Assembly: GCF_004365175.1 (NCBI RefSeq)
Contig: NZ_SOCE01000002.1
Coordinates: forward strand, 1,178,001 to 1,242,000
Origin: Kribbella voronezhensis
Lineage (GTDB): Bacteria > Actinomycetota > Actinomycetes > Propionibacteriales > Kribbellaceae
Direction: 5' to 3'
Length of the DNA: 64,000 bases
Below, piece after piece: positions 30,279 through 38,729 of this stretch; within the stretch, counting starts at the first letter, position 1; each line of letters opens with the position of its first letter. Both the position numbers and the translations under genes were made by a program. Under the pieces are notes generated by a model. The model was not told the origin of the DNA. It was given only the letters and a program-made list of their open reading frames with translations, and searched no databases.

Positions 30279-30387
30279 GTACGGTCACGATCCGGGCGCC
30301 CGTAACGGATCTGGTCTACCGTCGATGTAGCTGTCGAGGGGGAGGGGCCTTCAGCATGCGCAAAGATCGACTGGGTGGGCGGTAGCC

Positions 30388-31485
30388 GTGCGGATGCTGC
30401 CCGTGCGGCCCTGGGCGGACAGGGCCAGGCTTGCCGTGTTCTTCAGCAGGCTCGCCGTCAAGGAACACCTCCGTCCGGGCCTGCACGTCAAGCCGCTGGC
30501 GGCGGAACTGTTCCTGACCGACAACTGCAACTTGAAGTGCGTCAGTTGTGCCTGCTGGCGAACTGTCACCCGCAAGGAGCTCGACGGCGCCGAGTGGCGC
30601 GACGTGATCGACCAGCTCGCCGCGCTCGGCATCGTCAAGGCCAACTTCACCGGCGGCGAGCCGCTGTTGCGCCGGGACGCCCCGGAGCTGATGGCTTACG
30701 CGTACAGCCGCGGCATCCGCAATCTGCACGTCAACACCAACGCGGTGCTGCTCGACGAAAGACGCCGTACCGCGGTCCTCGACGCGGGCGTCCGTAGTTT
30801 CAACATCTCCGTCGACGGTCCCGACGCCGAGATCCACGAGCGGGTCCGCGGCGTCGACGGCTCCTTCGACAAGACGATCGGACGGCTGACCGAACTCGTC
30901 GAGGAGCGCGCCCGGCTGAAGCTCCGGGTCCGGATGAACTTCACCGTGATGCGCTCCAACATCGAGTCGCTCCCGGACATGATGCGGCTCGCACAACGGT
31001 TGAAGGTCCAGCTCTACCTGAACCTGGCGACCGACCGCACCTTCTTGTTCCGGGCCGGCCAGGTGACGTTGGAGACCAGGATCGGCACCGAGCAGATCAA
31101 CGCGGTGCTCGCGGAGGTGGAGCAGTTGTTGCGGGCCGATGGGCGCTTTCTGCCGCACTTCTCCGAGCTTTCCTACCTGCGAAGGCATTTCGACGACGTC
31201 CTGCAGCAGGACCTGCCGTGTGCCGAGTCGCAGCTCAAGCTGATGATCCATTCCACCGGCGAGGTCGGTGGTTGCTGGGCACACGATGCCCACGACAACG
31301 TTCGGGACAAGCCGATCGCCGAGATCATCGACAGCCGGCGCTATCGCGACGACCACGACCGGTTCTTCGCCAAGGACTGCAAAGGGTGCGGCAGCAACTA
31401 TGCGCTGAATCTCGCCTGGCGGCCGAGCAGTCACCTCGACAACCTGCTCTGGCATGCGGGTCTGCGCAGCCTCGCGGCTTCATGA
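30388..31485 (+). CDS. Radical SAM enzyme with auxiliary Fe-S-like C-terminus
   Basis: The 365-residue protein carries CNLKCVSC (CxxxCxxC, Cys 47/51/54) to bind the SAM 4Fe-4S cluster, then the GGEP motif in NFTGGEPLLRR. Strands NLHVNTNAVLL and FNISVDGPDAEIHERVRG fit the radical SAM barrel. The C-terminus has further Cys in DLPCAES, GGCWAHD and DCKGCGSNY, consistent with a SPASM- or twitch-like extra cluster. GTG 30388 is given; ATG 30394 is possible. A SAM methyltransferase overlaps by ATGA, and sugar-nucleotide genes follow, so a modified glycan, lipid or peptide is the likely substrate class (inferred). Confidence 0.85.
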   Translation: MRMLPVRPWADRARLAVFFSRLAVKEHLRPGLHVKPLAAELFLTDNCNLKCVSCACWRTVTRKELDGAEWRDVIDQLAALGIVKANFTGGEPLLRRDAPELMAYAYSRGIRNLHVNTNAVLLDERRRTAVLDAGVRSFNISVDGPDAEIHERVRGVDGSFDKTIGRLTELVEERARLKLRVRMNFTVMRSNIESLPDMMRLAQRLKVQLYLNLATDRTFLFRAGQVTLETRIGTEQINAVLAEVEQLLRADGRFLPHFSELSYLRRHFDDVLQQDLPCAESQLKLMIHSTGEVGGCWAHDAHDNVRDKPIAEIIDSRRYRDDHDRFFAKDCKGCGSNYALNLAWRPSSHLDNLLWHAGLRSLAAS

Positions 31486-32252
31486 GGTCATCGGCCGACC
31501 TGTACGACGCGCTCGCGCCGACGTACGAGGATCACTTCACGGCGCCACATCGCAAGGCCTACGACGACCTGGCGTGGGAAGCCTGCTGCGAGGCCATCGG
31601 TACGGCGCCTGGTCTGGTGATCGATGTCGGGTGTGGCGTCGGCCGGTGGGCGCGCCGGTTCGTCGACCAGGGTCACTGGGTGATCGGGATCGAACCAGCG
31701 CCCGGGATGTCGGACCGGGCCGCCCTTCTGCAAGGTGAAAGCTTCACCCTGCTTCGCGATCGGGTCGAGCAGGTCGAGTTGGAGACCGGGGTGGCAGACG
31801 CTGTCGTTGCCATGGGCTCCTTGCAGTACACGGCCGATCCGGCCGCGGCCATTGCCTTGTGCGCCACCTGGCTCAAGCCGGGCGGCGTGCTCTGCGTGCT
31901 GGTCGACTCACTGTTCGGCCTGGTGGTCGAGTTGATGCGCGCCGGCCGGACCAGCGAGGCGATGCAAAGGCTGGACACCCGGCTTGGTGTCTGGCGCATC
32001 GATGACCAGGAGGCCGATCTCCACCTACTCGACGCCGACACCTTGGGGGACGCTTTCAAACAGGCAGGATTGGAGGTGCTCAGTACTTCGGGGTTGCTGG
32101 TCGGCGCCAGTCTCATCGGCCGCGACGAGTTGATCGCTGCTCTGAGCGCCGACTACGGCCGACAACTCGACCAGGAGCGCGCGATGGCGAACTGTCGAGA
32201 CCTCGCCGATCTCGGCAAGCAATTGCTGGTCATCGGTCGCCGGACTGCATGA
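31482..32252 (+). CDS. Class I SAM-dependent methyltransferase
   Basis: The 256-residue protein has SAM motif I in VIDVGCGVGRWARRF (~residue 46), the acidic loop VIGIEPAPGM, and motif III-like WLKPGGVLCVLVDS. Its start overlaps the radical SAM stop, so the two are co-translated and may act on the same molecule. Its 3' end overlaps that of the convergent fusion gene by 23 bases. The methyl acceptor is unknown. Confidence 0.85.
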   Translation: MRSSADLYDALAPTYEDHFTAPHRKAYDDLAWEACCEAIGTAPGLVIDVGCGVGRWARRFVDQGHWVIGIEPAPGMSDRAALLQGESFTLLRDRVEQVELETGVADAVVAMGSLQYTADPAAAIALCATWLKPGGVLCVLVDSLFGLVVELMRAGRTSEAMQRLDTRLGVWRIDDQEADLHLLDADTLGDAFKQAGLEVLSTSGLLVGASLIGRDELIAALSADYGRQLDQERAMANCRDLADLGKQLLVIGRRTA

Positions 32253-34278
32253 TTCGCAGTACTGCGCAGACCACGCGCTCGGCGTCGGCCGGGTTGAGCT
32301 CCGACGACATGGGCAGGGCGAGCACCTCGTCGGCCAGCGCTTCGGTGACCGGTAGCTCGACGGATGGTTCGGCCAGACCGTGCCAGTCCTCGCGATGCAG
32401 CACAGGCGCGTAGTACGGCTTGGTGCCGATACCTCGGCGGCCGAGTTCCGCGGCCAGTCGATCACGGTCGGGGAACCGGGCCACCCAGTGCACCCACGCG
32501 TGCTGGTCGCCGGCCCTCACCTCTTGGGGAACCGCCAGCGGCGCTAGCTCCGCATAGGCTTCGGCCACTCGCTGCCGCCTTTCGACGAGAACGTCGAGGT
32601 GCTCCACCAGATCCACCGCGGCGGCGGCATGTACTTCGCCGAGCAGCGACGACCGGGTCCAGTCGATCGGCCTGACCAACTTGTGCAGGCGATCGGTGGG
32701 GATGACGACGAAGCCGCCGGCGCCGGCAGCCGACACCACCTTGGCGAAGCTCATCGAGAACGAGTGCGCGTCGGCCTGGGTGCCGACCGGCAGGCCGTTG
32801 GACATGCTGCCGAGGGCCGCGGCGGAGTCGGCGACCAGGCGTACGCCGTACCGGTTGCAGATGGTGCGAACTGCCGGGTAATCGGCCGGCGCACCAAGGG
32901 TGTCGACGGCAACGACCAGGCTCACATCGCCCTGCGACAAGGCGGTTTCGAGGCAGTCCGGATCCAGGGTCCAGGTCTTCGGATCGACGTCGCAGAAACG
33001 GAGTCTGTAGCCGAGTTGGGCTATTGCTTCAGCAGTTGCGACGAAGGTGAAGGACGGCAGTACGGCGACCTGCCCCGGCGACGCCGATCCCGCGACGGCC
33101 AGTACGGCGAGGCGCAGCGCCGCAGTACCCGATGCTGTTGCCAGCAACGTCTGCTCATCGGTCAGCTCAAGTCGCGCCGCCAGCAACTCGGTGAGCCTCG
33201 TGGTCAGAGGGCCACCACTCTTCAGTACGCCGGTTTGCAGCGCCGCGGCGGATCGTGCGGCAACGACATCCGGGGCGAACGGGAGTGGCGGGATGACCAC
33301 CGGAAGAGGTTGGAGGTGAGGCTCGGCCTCGTTGGCCAGGTAGCGAACGAAGGTGCGCAACGTTGAGTGGAGATGTTCGTCCTCGACCACATCGAGCATG
33401 CGGAGGAACGGTTTGACGTCGAGTTCGCCACTGCTGTCGTCGGCGGGTGAGGGCACGACTTGCACCGGTACGTCGAGGTCGAGTTCGTCGAGCACGAGCT
33501 TGGCCAGGTCGATGAGGCGCAGCTTGCCGGTGCCTGCGTTGACGAGGCCGGCCACGTCGTCCCGCAGTACGGCGTCGGCCAGGTCGCTCGCGGCGACGAA
33601 GGTCCGGACGCTGTCCGTGACGCGGATCGGCAGGCCGACCAGAGCTCGTCGGGTGACGCGGGCAACGACTCTGTCCTGACCTCGGCCGAACAGGTTGGCC
33701 GCCCGGAAGATGGTCAGCCGGTTGGCCGGAACCACGGAGGCGACGAGGAGTTCCTGGGCTCGTTTCGCCAGGCCGTAGACCCAGCGACCGGACGGGTCGG
33801 CTTCGGCAAGCTCACGGCACAACGCCGCCGCGATCCAGGGTGGGCAGGGATTGCGGGCGAGCTGGATCGCCTTCTCGCACCAGTCGGCGAGGGCGGCGTC
33901 ATCCAGCGGAAGCTCACCAGCCGTGTGCTCGGCCAGTGGCGGCGATGCGGTCCCGTAGACCTCGGCGGACGAGACCAACGTGACGTCCTTGCCCGCGAGG
34001 GCGGGCAGCAACCTGGCGGTGGTCAAGGCGTTGTCGAGCACGAGCCGCCAAGGGTGAGCCGAGCGCGGATCGCTGTTGCCGGCCAGCAGAACCACACGTC
34101 CGTCGGGAAGCTCGGGCGGGTCTGTCAGCAGCTCGAGCTGGTGGAACTCGGTGCCGTCCGAAGGCGGCCGCCGATCGACGACGATGACCTGGCGACCCGA
34201 CGTACGGGCGCGGTCACGCACGGCTGAGCCGACGAATCCCGATCCACCGACTAGCACCACCGGATGGCTTCTGGCCAT
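32230..34278 (-). CDS. Fusion of NAD-dependent sugar epimerase/dehydratase and DegT-type aminotransferase
   Basis: The 682-residue protein has an SDR-type sugar-nucleotide domain (~residues 1-310: VVLVGGSGFVGSAV Rossmann motif, SSAEVYG, and WVYGLAKRAQELL giving YxxxK). A DegT/DnrJ/EryC1/StrS aminotransferase domain follows (~330-682: TASGTAALRLAVLAVAG, PSFTFVATAEAIAQLG, and SFAKVVSAAGAGGFV with the probable PLP Lys near 512). Dehydratase and aminotransferase normally act in sequence to make amino sugars as separate proteins, so the fusion suggests channelling. ATG 34278 begins directly with the Rossmann strand. No stop or frameshift separates the halves. Confidence 0.85.
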   Translation of the reverse strand: MARSHPVVLVGGSGFVGSAVRDRARTSGRQVIVVDRRPPSDGTEFHQLELLTDPPELPDGRVVLLAGNSDPRSAHPWRLVLDNALTTARLLPALAGKDVTLVSSAEVYGTASPPLAEHTAGELPLDDAALADWCEKAIQLARNPCPPWIAAALCRELAEADPSGRWVYGLAKRAQELLVASVVPANRLTIFRAANLFGRGQDRVVARVTRRALVGLPIRVTDSVRTFVAASDLADAVLRDDVAGLVNAGTGKLRLIDLAKLVLDELDLDVPVQVVPSPADDSSGELDVKPFLRMLDVVEDEHLHSTLRTFVRYLANEAEPHLQPLPVVIPPLPFAPDVVAARSAAALQTGVLKSGGPLTTRLTELLAARLELTDEQTLLATASGTAALRLAVLAVAGSASPGQVAVLPSFTFVATAEAIAQLGYRLRFCDVDPKTWTLDPDCLETALSQGDVSLVVAVDTLGAPADYPAVRTICNRYGVRLVADSAAALGSMSNGLPVGTQADAHSFSMSFAKVVSAAGAGGFVVIPTDRLHKLVRPIDWTRSSLLGEVHAAAAVDLVEHLDVLVERRQRVAEAYAELAPLAVPQEVRAGDQHAWVHWVARFPDRDRLAAELGRRGIGTKPYYAPVLHREDWHGLAEPSVELPVTEALADEVLALPMSSELNPADAERVVCAVLRIMQSGDR

Positions 34279-34372
34279 GACTCGGTTCCCCCTGGATCCC
34301 CAACCGCGGCCGGCCCCCCGATGCCGCGTTCCGGGAACTGTAACCGTTGCCGATCCCGATTACCATGACGGG

Positions 34373-34837
34373 ATGACGCAGGGGGGCCGGCGGACGTTGT
34401 TGGTGTCGAGCAGTGGGGGAGTCCTGCTCGACGTGCTTGCGTTGCGCCCGTGGTGGCGCACGCAGGAGGTGTCGTGGGTGGCGGTGGAGGCACCGGATAC
34501 GGCCGAGTTGCTGGCCGCGTACGAGGTTCGCTGGGAGCCCGAGCTTCGGCCTCGCGACGTCGGTGCGCTTGTGCGGGCGGTGTTGCGCGCCCGATCGGCC
34601 TTGCGCGGTGGCCGAATCGAGCTGGTTGTCTCGGCGGGGAGCGGCGTGGCCGTGCCCTACTTCTTGGCCGCGCGCCTGGCCGGAGTACCGGCTGTGTGGG
34701 TAGAGACGTTCAACGTGATCGGCAAGCCCGGTCTGGCGGCTCGGCTCTGCGCCGCGTTGGCGAGCCAGGTGGTGGTTCAGCATCCTGAGTTGCTGGCGCG
34801 GCACCGTCGCGCGGTGAACGTCGGTGAACTCTATTGA
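34373..34837 (+). CDS. Alg14/PssD-like glycosyltransferase membrane-anchor subunit
   Basis: The 154-residue protein starts with a glycine-rich strand (RRTLLVSSSGGVLLDVLALR), then ELVVSAGSGVAVPYFLAARL and VWVETFNVIGKPGLAARL. This pattern matches Alg14/PssD/CpsF, the acceptor-binding partner of a split GT28-type glycosyltransferase. Its stop overlaps the TTG start of the next gene, which encodes the Alg13-like donor half. The pair would add a sugar, possibly GlcA, Gal or GlcNAc, to a lipid-linked acceptor. Confidence 0.75.
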   Translation: MTQGGRRTLLVSSSGGVLLDVLALRPWWRTQEVSWVAVEAPDTAELLAAYEVRWEPELRPRDVGALVRAVLRARSALRGGRIELVVSAGSGVAVPYFLAARLAGVPAVWVETFNVIGKPGLAARLCAALASQVVVQHPELLARHRRAVNVGELY

Positions 34838-36069
34838 GCCGGCTCAGTGTCTTCGTCACGGTCGGGATGGGGCCGTGGCCGTTCGACCGGCTGATCGCGG
34901 CCAGCTCGTCGTTGTGCGGCGATCATGAGGTCTTCATGCAGACCGGTACGTCGACGGTGGTGCCGCCGTGCTCGTCCGCTCCTTTCATCGGCTACGAGGA
35001 GACGGTACGACGCCTCGCGGAGGCCGATGTGGTGATCACCCATGCGGGCAACACAGTGCGACTCGTGGAACGGATGGGCAAGGTGCCGATCGCGATCGCC
35101 CGGGAGGCTTCGCGCGGTGAGATGCGTAACGATCACCAGGTCGAGTACCTTCGCGCCGAAGAGCCGCGAGGTCGCGTCATCGCCTTGTGGGGCGACTTGT
35201 CGGAGCTCGGCCGGGCGGTAGCGGAGCATCCGCGGCGGGAGCAGCAGTTGCTGGCGGCAATGAAACCACTTGCTGAAGTCAACGAAACCGCGCTGGAAGC
35301 CGTTATGTCGTTGGCTGTTCGTCCCGTTGCTCCTGACAACGTTTTCGAGAAGCACCCGACTGCTCGCTATGCCTGGGCTTTCGAGCAGCTGCGGTCGCGG
35401 ACGGGGCGTCATCTCGATCTCGGGATCGGTGACGGAACCTTCTTGTCTGCGCTTGCGGACCGTACTGCGCTGCAGGTGGTCGGTGCGGACCCACATCCCG
35501 CCTATCTGGCCTCATGTCCAGGTGATCGACCTCTCGTGCGGGTGGGTGAAGAGCTGCCCTTCGCGGATGCGTCCTTCGACTCGGTCACCATGCTGGACGT
35601 GCTCGAGCACACCCGCGATGAGCGTTCAACCCTTGCGCAAGTTCATCGTGTACTACGGCCGGGTGGGCTGCTGGTGCTGACGGTGCCGGCGCAGCATGTG
35701 TTCTCGTTCCTCGATCCGGACAACGCCAAGCTGCGAATGCCTCGGCTCCATCGGACGGTCTATGCGGCGCGGTTCGGGCGGGAGGTCTATCGACAGCGGT
35801 TCGAGGACTCGTCGGACGGGCTGCGCGGTGACATGGCTTGGGAGCGCGACGAGCACACGAACTACCGGCCTGCTGAGCTGCTTGAAATGCTTGGGCAGGC
35901 AGGGTTTCAGCCACAGTCGCGGGACGGCGCCAATCTGTTCTGGCGATTCCTGCAGATTCCGGCGCTGCTGGCGCCGCAGCGAGCACGCGTTCTCTTCGAT
36001 CTCCCGCTACGGGTGGACGGCTCGCTCTTCCGATCGGCCAACCTCTTCCTCACCGCCGTTCGTGGCTAG
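34834..36069 (+). CDS. Alg13/PssE-like glycosyltransferase fused to a SAM methyltransferase
   Basis: The 411-residue protein begins like Alg13 (LSVFVTVGMGPWPFDRLIAA). It carries ADVVITHAGNTVRLVERMGK and an IAREASRGEMRNDHQVEYL block equivalent to the family's DDHQ motif (~residues 62-110). After ~180 residues a class I methyltransferase begins: HLDLGIGDGTFLSALADR (~residue 193), PFADASFDSVTMLDVLEHTR, LRPGGLLVLTVPAQH. TTG 34834 overlaps the Alg14 stop. Such a fusion could methylate the freshly transferred sugar, or the lipid-linked product. The fusion is intact. Confidence 0.78.
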   Translation: MSRLSVFVTVGMGPWPFDRLIAASSSLCGDHEVFMQTGTSTVVPPCSSAPFIGYEETVRRLAEADVVITHAGNTVRLVERMGKVPIAIAREASRGEMRNDHQVEYLRAEEPRGRVIALWGDLSELGRAVAEHPRREQQLLAAMKPLAEVNETALEAVMSLAVRPVAPDNVFEKHPTARYAWAFEQLRSRTGRHLDLGIGDGTFLSALADRTALQVVGADPHPAYLASCPGDRPLVRVGEELPFADASFDSVTMLDVLEHTRDERSTLAQVHRVLRPGGLLVLTVPAQHVFSFLDPDNAKLRMPRLHRTVYAARFGREVYRQRFEDSSDGLRGDMAWERDEHTNYRPAELLEMLGQAGFQPQSRDGANLFWRFLQIPALLAPQRARVLFDLPLRVDGSLFRSANLFLTAVRG

Positions 36070-36999
36070 CACCTGCCTGAACCACGTGATCGTTCGCGTG
36101 ATGCCTTCGTCGAAACCTGTCTGCGGTTCCCAGCCGTCGAGGACCTTGGTCGCCAGACTGATGTCCGGCCGGCGGACCATCGGGTCGTCCTCGGGGCGTG
36201 GGATGTGCACGAGCTCGGACGTCGACCCCACCAGCTCGCGAACCCGGGTGGCGATGTCCCGAACGGTCAGCTCGTCGGGGTTCCCCAGATTCAGCGGGCC
36301 CGGGTGATCGGAGGCGGCGAACCTGCTGACTCCCTCGACCAGATCGCCGACGTACTGCACGGACCGGGTCTGGCTGCCGTCGCCGGCGATCGTCAACGGC
36401 AGACCCCGGATCGCCTGCGTGACGAAGGCCGGGATCGCTCGACCGTCATCGGGGCGCATGCGTTCGCCGTACGTGTTGAAGATCCGCGCGATGCCGGTGT
36501 TCACCCCATGCGTACGCCGGTACGCCATGGTCAGCGCCTCGGCGTACCGCTTCGCCTCGTCGTACACACCCCGCGGTCCTACTGGGTTCACGTGACCCCA
36601 GTAGTCCTCGCGCTGCGGGTGCTCGCGTGGGTCGCCGTACGTCTCGGAACTGGACGCGAGGATGAACCGCGAGCGTTTCTCCCGGGCGAGTCCGAGAGCG
36701 TGCAGGGTGCCGATGGCGCCAACGGTCAACGTCTCGATCGGCAGCTGGAGGTAGTCGACCGGACTTGCCGGTGAGGCGAAATGAAGGACCAGGTCGATCG
36801 GTCCCGGTACGTGGATGTAATCGACCAGGTCGCAGCGCACGAGCCGGAAGTCCGGCGACTCCAGCAGATGCTGAACATTGGCCGGACTACCGGTGACGAA
36901 ATTGTCCAGAGCGACGACCTGGTAGTCGTCGGCCAGCAAACGCTCAGACAGATGCGACCCGAGAAACCCGGCCCCACCGGTCACCACTGCACGCCGCAT
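36007..36999 (-). CDS. NAD-dependent UDP-glucuronate decarboxylase-like epimerase
   Basis: The 330-residue extended SDR has VVTGGAGFLGSHLSERLL at the N-terminus, SSSETYGDPREHPQREDYWG, YDEAKRYAEAL (YxxxK), IARIFNTYGERMRPDDGRAI and SVQYVGDLVEG. This is closest to UDP-xylose synthase/UDP-glucuronate decarboxylase, with UDP-sugar 4-epimerase as the alternative. The start at 36999 has GGAGGGGG just upstream. It overlaps the 3' end of the Alg13-methyltransferase gene by 63 bases in the opposite direction. It probably supplies a UDP-sugar donor for the cluster. Confidence 0.87.
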   Translation of the reverse strand: MRRAVVTGGAGFLGSHLSERLLADDYQVVALDNFVTGSPANVQHLLESPDFRLVRCDLVDYIHVPGPIDLVLHFASPASPVDYLQLPIETLTVGAIGTLHALGLAREKRSRFILASSSETYGDPREHPQREDYWGHVNPVGPRGVYDEAKRYAEALTMAYRRTHGVNTGIARIFNTYGERMRPDDGRAIPAFVTQAIRGLPLTIAGDGSQTRSVQYVGDLVEGVSRFAASDHPGPLNLGNPDELTVRDIATRVRELVGSTSELVHIPRPEDDPMVRRPDISLATKVLDGWEPQTGFDEGITRTITWFRQVLATNGGEEEVGRSEERAVHP

Positions 37000-37259
37000 C
37001 AGATCCCCCTCCGTCGGCGAGTCCCCCCGGACCCTCTCGCTCAGCGTAAGCCCACCACGCCGCAACTTCCCCGATCTCGAGCGCATCGAGCCTGGACGGT
37101 CGCCGCGGACGGCTCCGAGGGGCCGGCACCTACAACGTCGATATCCCCGGTTTTGGCGTCAGGCCGACGATCTGGCTGATGGACAGCAACGGCATGCATC
37201 GGCATCACTGGCCTGCCGTCCAGTTGGCGCTCTGCCGGCTGACCCTCCGGGCGGCGACG

Positions 37260-37292
37260 CTTGAACCCGGGTGGCGGTCACCTGGGTTCAAG
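37260..37292 (+). promoter_or_regulatory. Long hairpin next to the ribosome site of the AAA gene
   Basis: CTTGAACCC (37260-37268) pairs with GGGTTCAAG (37284-37292), and an inner GGT/ACC extends the stem past one G-U pair to about 13 pairs with a 7-base loop. The ribosome site GAGGGG begins right after the stem and ATG 37305 follows. It could be an operator, an attenuator or a translational control hairpin. Confidence 0.55.
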
Positions 37293-37304
37293 CGAGGGGT
37301 GTCG

Positions 37305-38729
37305 ATGGACGAACCGGATGAGGTTGCGGAGTTCGCGAGGCTGTTCAACGGGTTTCTGGAACGGATGCAGAATCCTCCGTCCGAGAACCCGCGGGAGAGC
37401 CTCAGAGAGCGGTTGCTGGCGTATCTCGGCATGGATCCCGAGGAGCTGCCGGTGGTGGCCGCGTCGTTCCCGTCCTTCGATCTGCCGAACGTCCAGCTCG
37501 CCGTCGAGGCGTGGTTCGACAGCTTCGAGGTGGTCGGCCTGGCCGGATCCGATCGCGGCCACTACACCTTCTCCGAGCTGCTGGAGGTCTCGGCCCACCG
37601 CCGGTACGGCATCGGCGCGGTCGACTACCAGCGCATCTCGATCGCCGTCGACCAGGAGATGGATTGCGTCGCCTTCGGGTTCTACCTGGCCAGTCAGGGC
37701 GACGACCGGTACGTCGCGTTGCTGCGAGCCGCCAACCCGCAGTACGGGCGGCCCACGGTGCAACTCGAGGTCGTTGCTACTAGCAAGGAAGCCGGAGAGC
37801 GCTTCCTCGGGGAGCTGCCCGCGCTGATCCTCGAGCACAACGTCTTCCGCGGGCAGGTGGTCTCGTTCGAAGGGCACCAGTTCGAGCGGGGCGTCGGGCC
37901 GTTCCGGTTGCACGCGCGACCGGAGATCTCTCGCGACGACGTAGTACTGCCGGACGGCGTACTGGAACGCGTCGAGCGCGAGGTGATCGGCATCGCGGAG
38001 CACCGCGAGGTGCTGCTCGCAGCCGGTCAGCACCTACGTCGCGGCGTACTGCTGTATGGGCCGCCGGGGACCGGGAAGACGCACACCGTGCGGTATCTGT
38101 TGTCGCGGCTGCCTGAGTTCACGGTGGTGCTGCTGGCGGGCACAAGCATCGGGTTCATCTCCGAGGCATGTGGGCTGGCACGGATGCTGCAACCGGCGCT
38201 GGTGGTGCTCGAGGACTGCGACCTGGTGGCGGAAGCGCGGGACCACGCGTACGGCGGAGGTCCGCTGCTGTTCCAGGTACTGAACGAGATGGACGGACTC
38301 ACCGAGGAGGCGGATGTCGCTTTCCTGCTCACCACCAACCGCGCCGACCTGCTGGAGCCCGCCCTGAGCCAACGCCCCGGCCGGGTCGACCTGGCAGTCG
38401 AGATACCGCTCCCTGACGCTCCCGGCCGCTCCCGGCTGCTGTCGCTCTACGGACCGGGCCTTGAGTTGAGCCCCGCGGCCGTCGAGGACGTGGTCGCAAT
38501 GACCGACGGCACCACGGCTTCGTTCGCCAAGGAGCTCGTACGCCGCGCAGTACTCCTCGGCGCCGAGAACGACTCGCCACCCGGCGACGCAGAACTGAAA
38601 GCAGCCGCCGAAGACCTCCTGTCCACCCGCGACGCTCTGACCCGCCGCCTCCTAGGCGCCACCGAGCCGGCCCCCTACACACCCCCACCGGAAGCAACCC
38701 CCGGCTTGGCCCCACCCATGTCCTACTAA
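37305..38729 (+). CDS. AAA family ATPase with unknown N-terminal domain
   Basis: The 474-residue protein has a ~230-residue N-terminal region of unknown fold. A single AAA module follows: Walker A LLYGPPGTGKTHTVRYLL (~residue 252), Walker B LVVLEDCDL (~300), sensor-1 VAFLLTTNRADLL, and LSQRPGRVDLAVEIPLPD with the arginine finger (~355). It ends in a Pro-rich tail. ATG 37305 is preferred over ATG 37179 because the upstream part is low in conserved features and a ribosome site and hairpin precede 37305. It resembles Bcs1/FtsH-like single-ring ATPases. The substrate is unknown and no partner gene is next to it. Confidence 0.82.
   Translation: MDEPDEVAEFARLFNGFLERMQNPPSENPRESLRERLLAYLGMDPEELPVVAASFPSFDLPNVQLAVEAWFDSFEVVGLAGSDRGHYTFSELLEVSAHRRYGIGAVDYQRISIAVDQEMDCVAFGFYLASQGDDRYVALLRAANPQYGRPTVQLEVVATSKEAGERFLGELPALILEHNVFRGQVVSFEGHQFERGVGPFRLHARPEISRDDVVLPDGVLERVEREVIGIAEHREVLLAAGQHLRRGVLLYGPPGTGKTHTVRYLLSRLPEFTVVLLAGTSIGFISEACGLARMLQPALVVLEDCDLVAEARDHAYGGGPLLFQVLNEMDGLTEEADVAFLLTTNRADLLEPALSQRPGRVDLAVEIPLPDAPGRSRLLSLYGPGLELSPAAVEDVVAMTDGTTASFAKELVRRAVLLGAENDSPPGDAELKAAAEDLLSTRDALTRRLLGATEPAPYTPPPEATPGLAPPMSY

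Follow-up and report, generated by a model that had tools for sequence, protein, structure and literature searches.

A conserved fusion of an SDR to a DegT-family PLP enzyme in a transferable-looking, putative amino-sugar cassette of Kribbella

ArnA, CalS9 and AtmS9 release a 4-keto-pentose, from which separate PLP enzymes make the 4-amino-pentose (PMC10338323). In the ArnA/ArnB system the extended SDR that makes the UDP-4-keto-pentose is fused to another pathway enzyme, a formyltransferase, and the ketone is aminated by a separate DegT enzyme, ArnB. A 2025 study of ArnA discussed substrate channelling to ArnB, with an ArnA-ArnB complex that was not isolable, and reported no other evolutionarily stable fusion of the ArnA dehydrogenase domain (PMC12650200). 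The calicheamicin/AT2433 route, in which CalS9 or AtmS9 is followed by a CalS13-like PLP enzyme, combines a UDP-glucuronate decarboxylase with a DegT aminotransferase as separate proteins encoded in antibiotic clusters (PMC10338323).

The locus described here lies in a 64,000-nucleotide stretch of the genome of Kribbella voronezhensis, a soil actinobacterium (contig NZ_SOCE01000002.1, positions 1,178,001 to 1,242,000; referred to as the window), and differs from ArnA in that the SDR is fused directly to a DegT-family enzyme that is most likely an aminotransferase; the C-terminal half is of the DegT type and no Formyl_trans match is present in the fusion (Pfam). The fusion gene is the third of a six-gene cassette that encodes, in order, a radical SAM enzyme, a methyltransferase (MT1), the SDR-DegT fusion, PssD, a PssE-methyltransferase fusion and a UDP-glucuronate decarboxylase (UXS) homologue, and this cassette is a more informative context than the fusion alone. 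The features, in window coordinates, are as follows.

30280..37311, unstranded: whole cassette insert, with approximate bounds placed where homology with empty-site genomes ends
30388..31485, plus strand: radical SAM enzyme with CxxxCxxC at Cys47/51/54 and invariant Cys278/296/331/334
31482..32252, plus strand: MT1, a class I SAM methyltransferase, with a 4-bp overlap with the radical SAM gene
32230..34278, minus strand: SDR-DegT fusion gene, 682 aa with an ATG start, one ORF in four genomes
32233..33303, minus strand: end of the linker and the DegT/DnrJ/EryC1/StrS half (residues 326-682), with SGTAAL, D484 and Schiff-base K513
33376..34278, minus strand: SDR half (residues 1-301), with GGSGFVG at 11-17, S104, E106, Y168, K172, N195 and R225
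33784..33936, minus strand: SDR insert of ~40 residues (about residues 115-165) with two predicted helices, recognised by alignment with other extended SDRs
34279..34372, unstranded: divergent intergenic region of 94 bp defined by the gene positions, with good sequence conservation across the Kribbella copies
34373..34837, plus strand: PssD/Alg14-like glycosyltransferase subunit (NCBIfam PssD, E 5e-16; Pfam Alg14, 2e-5; below the curated cut-off)
34834..36069, plus strand: PssE-like glycosyltransferase fused to a class I methyltransferase, from profile matches, one ORF in four genomes
36007..36999, minus strand: UXS homologue, identified by phmmer against human UXS1; the ORF extends to 37086

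An initial annotation had described a 682-residue frame joining an SDR to a PLP enzyme with a lysine near 512, and closer analysis bears this out. The frame reads from 34278 to 32230 without an internal stop in its 682 codons, and by the Pfam gathering cut-offs residues 7-238 belong to PF01370 (Epimerase; 69.3 bits versus a cut-off of 20.9) and residues 344-673 to PF01041 (DegT_DnrJ_EryC1; 191.1 bits versus 19.8). The SDR half contains GGSGFVG (11-17), SSAEVYG from position 103 and YGLAK (168-172), and carries the GxxGxxG and S/T...YxxxK signature, with G11-G17, S104, Y168 and K172 invariant in four genomes. In the PLP half, ADSAAALG starts at 483 and the Schiff-base lysine is found at 513 within FAK, with both D484 and K513 invariant; indeed, all of the catalytic residues of the fusion are invariant in the four genomes. 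No frameshift is evident, the reading frame being uninterrupted in each of the four, and third-position GC is high throughout the linker (0.72-0.73 at codons ~300-450). Nor is there a convincing start between the domains: M294, the sole ATG in that stretch, does not recur in Nocardioides, and neither M294 nor the inter-domain GTG and TTG codons are preceded by a Shine-Dalgarno-like sequence. There is no sign that either domain is dead: the catalytic residues are invariant, and dN/dS between Kribbella species is about 0.12-0.17 per half. The fusion is thus a real single protein of SDR and DegT parts in which the catalytic residues of both halves are intact. The chance that a frameshift or assembly error has joined two adjacent genes is practically negligible, as the identical single ORF is present in four independent genomes of two genera with both the linker and the coding signal conserved, and an artefactual origin was rejected on these grounds.

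Full-length versions of the fusion are present in Kribbella monticola (L009, which is one contig with G014; 91% identity), in a second Kribbella (G018; 83%), and in an uncultured Nocardioides MAG (60%). Comparisons between Kribbella species give dN/dS values of 0.16-0.17 (SDR half) and 0.12-0.15 (aminotransferase half), and both halves are therefore maintained by purifying selection. The fusion occurs in three of the 38 genomes of the window's GTDB family, and samples from the higher ranks, with 397 genomes for the order, 395 and 385 for the class and 387 for the phylum, gave no further fused match, these counts deriving from genome samples and similarity-limited searches that unrelated SDR-DegT fusions elsewhere would escape. 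A looser search of the class (385 Actinomycetia genomes) returned as its other strong matches the aminotransferase half alone, starting near profile position 312-380, which agrees with the earlier statement that the two steps normally reside in separate proteins. A split version was not found: the free-standing Actinomycetia aminotransferases that were examined have no SDR half encoded within 1.5 kb. Architecture databases occasionally list the PF01370 and PF01041 pair, and no SDR-DegT fusion was found in the open-access literature searched. The fusion is rare and conserved; its component families are known and their combination is unusual.

A phage or plasmid origin was also considered and rejected, as no full-length match is present in those records: among 72,556 plasmid records and 50,697 phage records there is no place where 80% of the fusion protein is covered, and viral contigs contain no full-length match. 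A viral structure library yielded only generic SDRs and other SDR fusions of giant viruses.

Cassette gene order and orientation are identical in Kribbella and Nocardioides, with roughly 57-71% protein identity. The radical SAM protein (30388-31485) has seven invariant cysteines with Fe-S type spacing, and no NCBIfam model reaches its cut-off; the four extra cysteines are consistent with a SPASM-like auxiliary cluster. The next genes resemble the two-part glycosyltransferases PssD/PssE and Alg14/Alg13, with the PssD and PssE models matching 34373-34837 and 34834-36069, but differ in that the scores are under the curated cut-offs and the PssE part (residues 6-132, E 3e-13) is fused to a methyltransferase (Methyltransf_11, residues 194-282). 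This is a second fusion within the cassette, conserved in all four genomes. Assignment of the last gene as a UDP-glucuronate decarboxylase is strong, from a phmmer match to human UXS1 (E 8e-100 over 315 residues) and from the UXS-type block SSSETYGDP that the translated gene contains. The genome also has another copy of UXS (65% identical, at C2:828167) and a clear UDPG/GDP-mannose dehydrogenase homologue that would supply the uronate for UXS. The cassette has candidates for both kinds of gene of the CalS9/CalS13 route, a UXS homologue that might release 4-keto-xylose and a putative DegT aminotransferase; it differs in that the aminotransferase similarity is only E 1e-21, and we know of no radical SAM or PssD/PssE partners in CalS9/CalS13-type clusters.

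The fusion gene was earlier said to be convergent with its neighbors and to have its own promoter. Convergence holds on the MT1 side, where the genes are tail-to-tail and overlap by 23 bp (32230-32252), but not on the PssD side, where they diverge across a 94-bp gap. It is this divergence that makes a promoter of its own a fair inference, and the promoters of both the fusion gene and PssD should lie within 34279-34372. A promoter and terminator scan, which has little power in this organism, found no sigma-70-like site, and Rfam searches gave no RNA element.

The closest solved relatives of the SDR half are MoeE5, a UDP-glucuronate/glucose 4-epimerase, and human UXS1, both stand-alone proteins with about 20-23% identity to it. 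An AF2 model of this half (12 sequences; pLDDT 85, pTM 0.85) confirms the SDR fold, and Foldseek places it nearest to MoeE5 (in complex with UDP-glucuronate; E 4e-16) and human UXS1, followed by 4-epimerases including GalE; a profile search agrees, with MoeE5 and UDP-glucuronate decarboxylases/4-epimerases as the closest solved relatives. The half is nonetheless very divergent, and transfer of a substrate from its homologues is therefore weak: no NCBIfam SDR model matches at E 1e-3, and there is no second match in its own genome and none in plasmids. It also differs from other extended SDRs in the ~40-residue helical insert, which sits between the catalytic Ser and Tyr, contains invariant PCPPW and CR, and has confidently predicted helices at 127-140 and 147-159 in the AF2 model. 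The insert could act as a lid or offer the aminotransferase domain a surface to dock on; the AF2 model of the full-length fusion (four sequences) is of low confidence (pLDDT 45).

The PLP half has as its best solved relatives the sugar aminotransferases QdtB, WbpE and ArnB, along with unnamed DegT entries, and the CalS13 structure 4zas matches residues 329-670 of the fusion. It departs from its relatives in having A or P where H or Q is usual, three residues past the PLP Asp, and in replacement of the Asp/Glu of the GEGG/GDGG motif by A or Q. We consider it most likely to be an NDP-sugar aminotransferase. A sugar dehydratase of the ColD/E1 type shares the PF01041 fold family, and ColD/E1 entries do occur among the weaker matches; however, ColD-type enzymes have His in place of the Schiff-base Lys, whereas Lys513 is present and invariant here and the best matches are aminotransferases, so that a dehydratase is very improbable.

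Our preferred explanation, held with modest confidence, is that the fusion is a bifunctional NDP-sugar C-oxidase/aminotransferase within an amino-sugar cassette. The N-terminal NAD-dependent extended SDR would oxidize a ring carbon of an NDP-sugar, most likely C4, to a ketone, which the C-terminal PLP enzyme would convert to an NDP-amino sugar by transamination from an amino-acid donor. The two halves probably work one after the other on a single sugar. The cassette UXS would supply UDP-xylose or UDP-4-keto-xylose from UDP-glucuronate, which makes UDP-4-amino-4-deoxy-pentose the most likely product, although the identification of the sugar as a UDP-pentose is itself tentative. The amino sugar may be methylated by MT1 or the PssE-linked methyltransferase and possibly remodeled by the radical SAM enzyme, and the PssD/PssE-type glycosyltransferase would then transfer it to a lipid-linked or cell-surface glycan; whether the cassette has such a glycan role is an evenly balanced question. 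Channelling of an unstable keto-sugar between the fused halves, as suggested in the initial annotation, is plausible. The more ambitious proposal, that the SDR-aminotransferase oxidizes and aminates an NDP-sugar without release of the ketone, and that a mobile six-gene module with a radical SAM enzyme and a glycosyltransferase-methyltransferase fusion makes a methylated 4-amino-pentose not described before and attaches it to a glycan of actinobacteria, is speculative and rather unlikely to hold in full.

The main difficulty for the oxidase/aminotransferase explanation is that a UXS releasing UDP-4-keto-xylose directly would make oxidation by the fused SDR unneeded, and the SDR could therefore be an epimerase. 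In this main rival the SDR acts at a different cassette step, as a 4-epimerase or a decarboxylase, the DegT half aminates the keto-pentose released by UXS, and the fusion only fixes the stoichiometry of the two without any hand-over. The structures nearest to the SDR are indeed those of 4-epimerases (MoeE5, GalE) and UXS1, a separate UXS is encoded in the cassette, and enzymes related to UXS are able to release the 4-keto-pentose (PMC10338323), but the fusion partner of the SDR is specifically an aminotransferase and this pairing is kept across two genera, and on balance we regard simple co-expression as unlikely. The initial annotation carried the flavor of a dTDP-hexose pathway, implying an NDP-hexose 4,6-dehydratase as the SDR and a 4-amino-4,6-dideoxyhexose as the product of the aminotransferase. 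Although the aminotransferase half is related to the QdtB, DesI, PseC and WecE families, which use dideoxyhexoses, the cassette contains a UXS and no 4,6-dehydratase of a known kind. Moreover, the 4,6-dehydratases of the RmlB/PseB type have a T-D-E or T-D-K triad, whereas the catalytic block of the fused SDR is S-A/V-E-V-Y-G (S104-A105-E106, with V at 105 in Nocardioides), and a 4,6-dehydratase is disfavored because the middle Asp, or any acid at that position, is absent. The hallmark of UXS and the ArnA dehydrogenase is a T-S-E triad together with sugar-site N and R; the fused SDR differs from this at the middle residue but has invariant E106, N195 and R225, and so keeps the Glu common to decarboxylases. 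With this triad, the MoeE5/UXS relatives and the cassette UXS, the hexose route is quite improbable and a UDP-uronate or pentose substrate is the likelier of the two. Under the preferred oxidase/aminotransferase explanation, a natural covalent SDR-aminotransferase makes direct hand-over of the keto-intermediate testable by comparison of the fused and split proteins.

The amino-sugar cassette is also transferable-looking. In Kribbella it is flanked by a luciferase-like gene to the left and an AAA ATPase gene to the right, and we examined the syntenic place in six Kribbella genomes lacking the fusion. Four of these (G009, G010, G011 and G020) have the luciferase-like gene directly adjoining the AAA ATPase gene, with homology to the window ending near 30280-30295 and restarting near 37311; the other two have neither the cassette nor the AAA gene. 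These empty sites show the cassette to be a discrete presence/absence unit of ~7 kb, either acquired in one subclade or lost elsewhere. Its GC content (66.6%, versus 67.4% for the window) matches the host and thus gives no sign of recent foreign DNA, and no target-site duplication was seen, in that neither junction region, each searched separately, contains a direct repeat. Such a compact cassette, with six genes, two fusions and empty sites in relatives, would suggest that Kribbella and Nocardioides have an amino sugar or glycan yet to be characterised.

The insert carries at its right edge a near-perfect 16-nt inverted repeat (37258-37294; CGCTTGAACCCGGGTG/CACCTGGGTTCAAGCG with a 5-nt loop), a possible operator, terminator or insertion scar. 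It lies just upstream of the likely start of the AAA ATPase gene at 37305; the annotated start of that ORF (37179-38729) at 37179 is probably too early, as the empty-site homologues begin near 37305. In the Nocardioides MAG (L010, 6-4252) the cassette adjoins the C terminus of a ketoacyl-ACP-synthase-III-like protein and a 3-beta-HSD-like SDR, and these flanks, unlike those in Kribbella, recall the OleA/OleD olefin genes.
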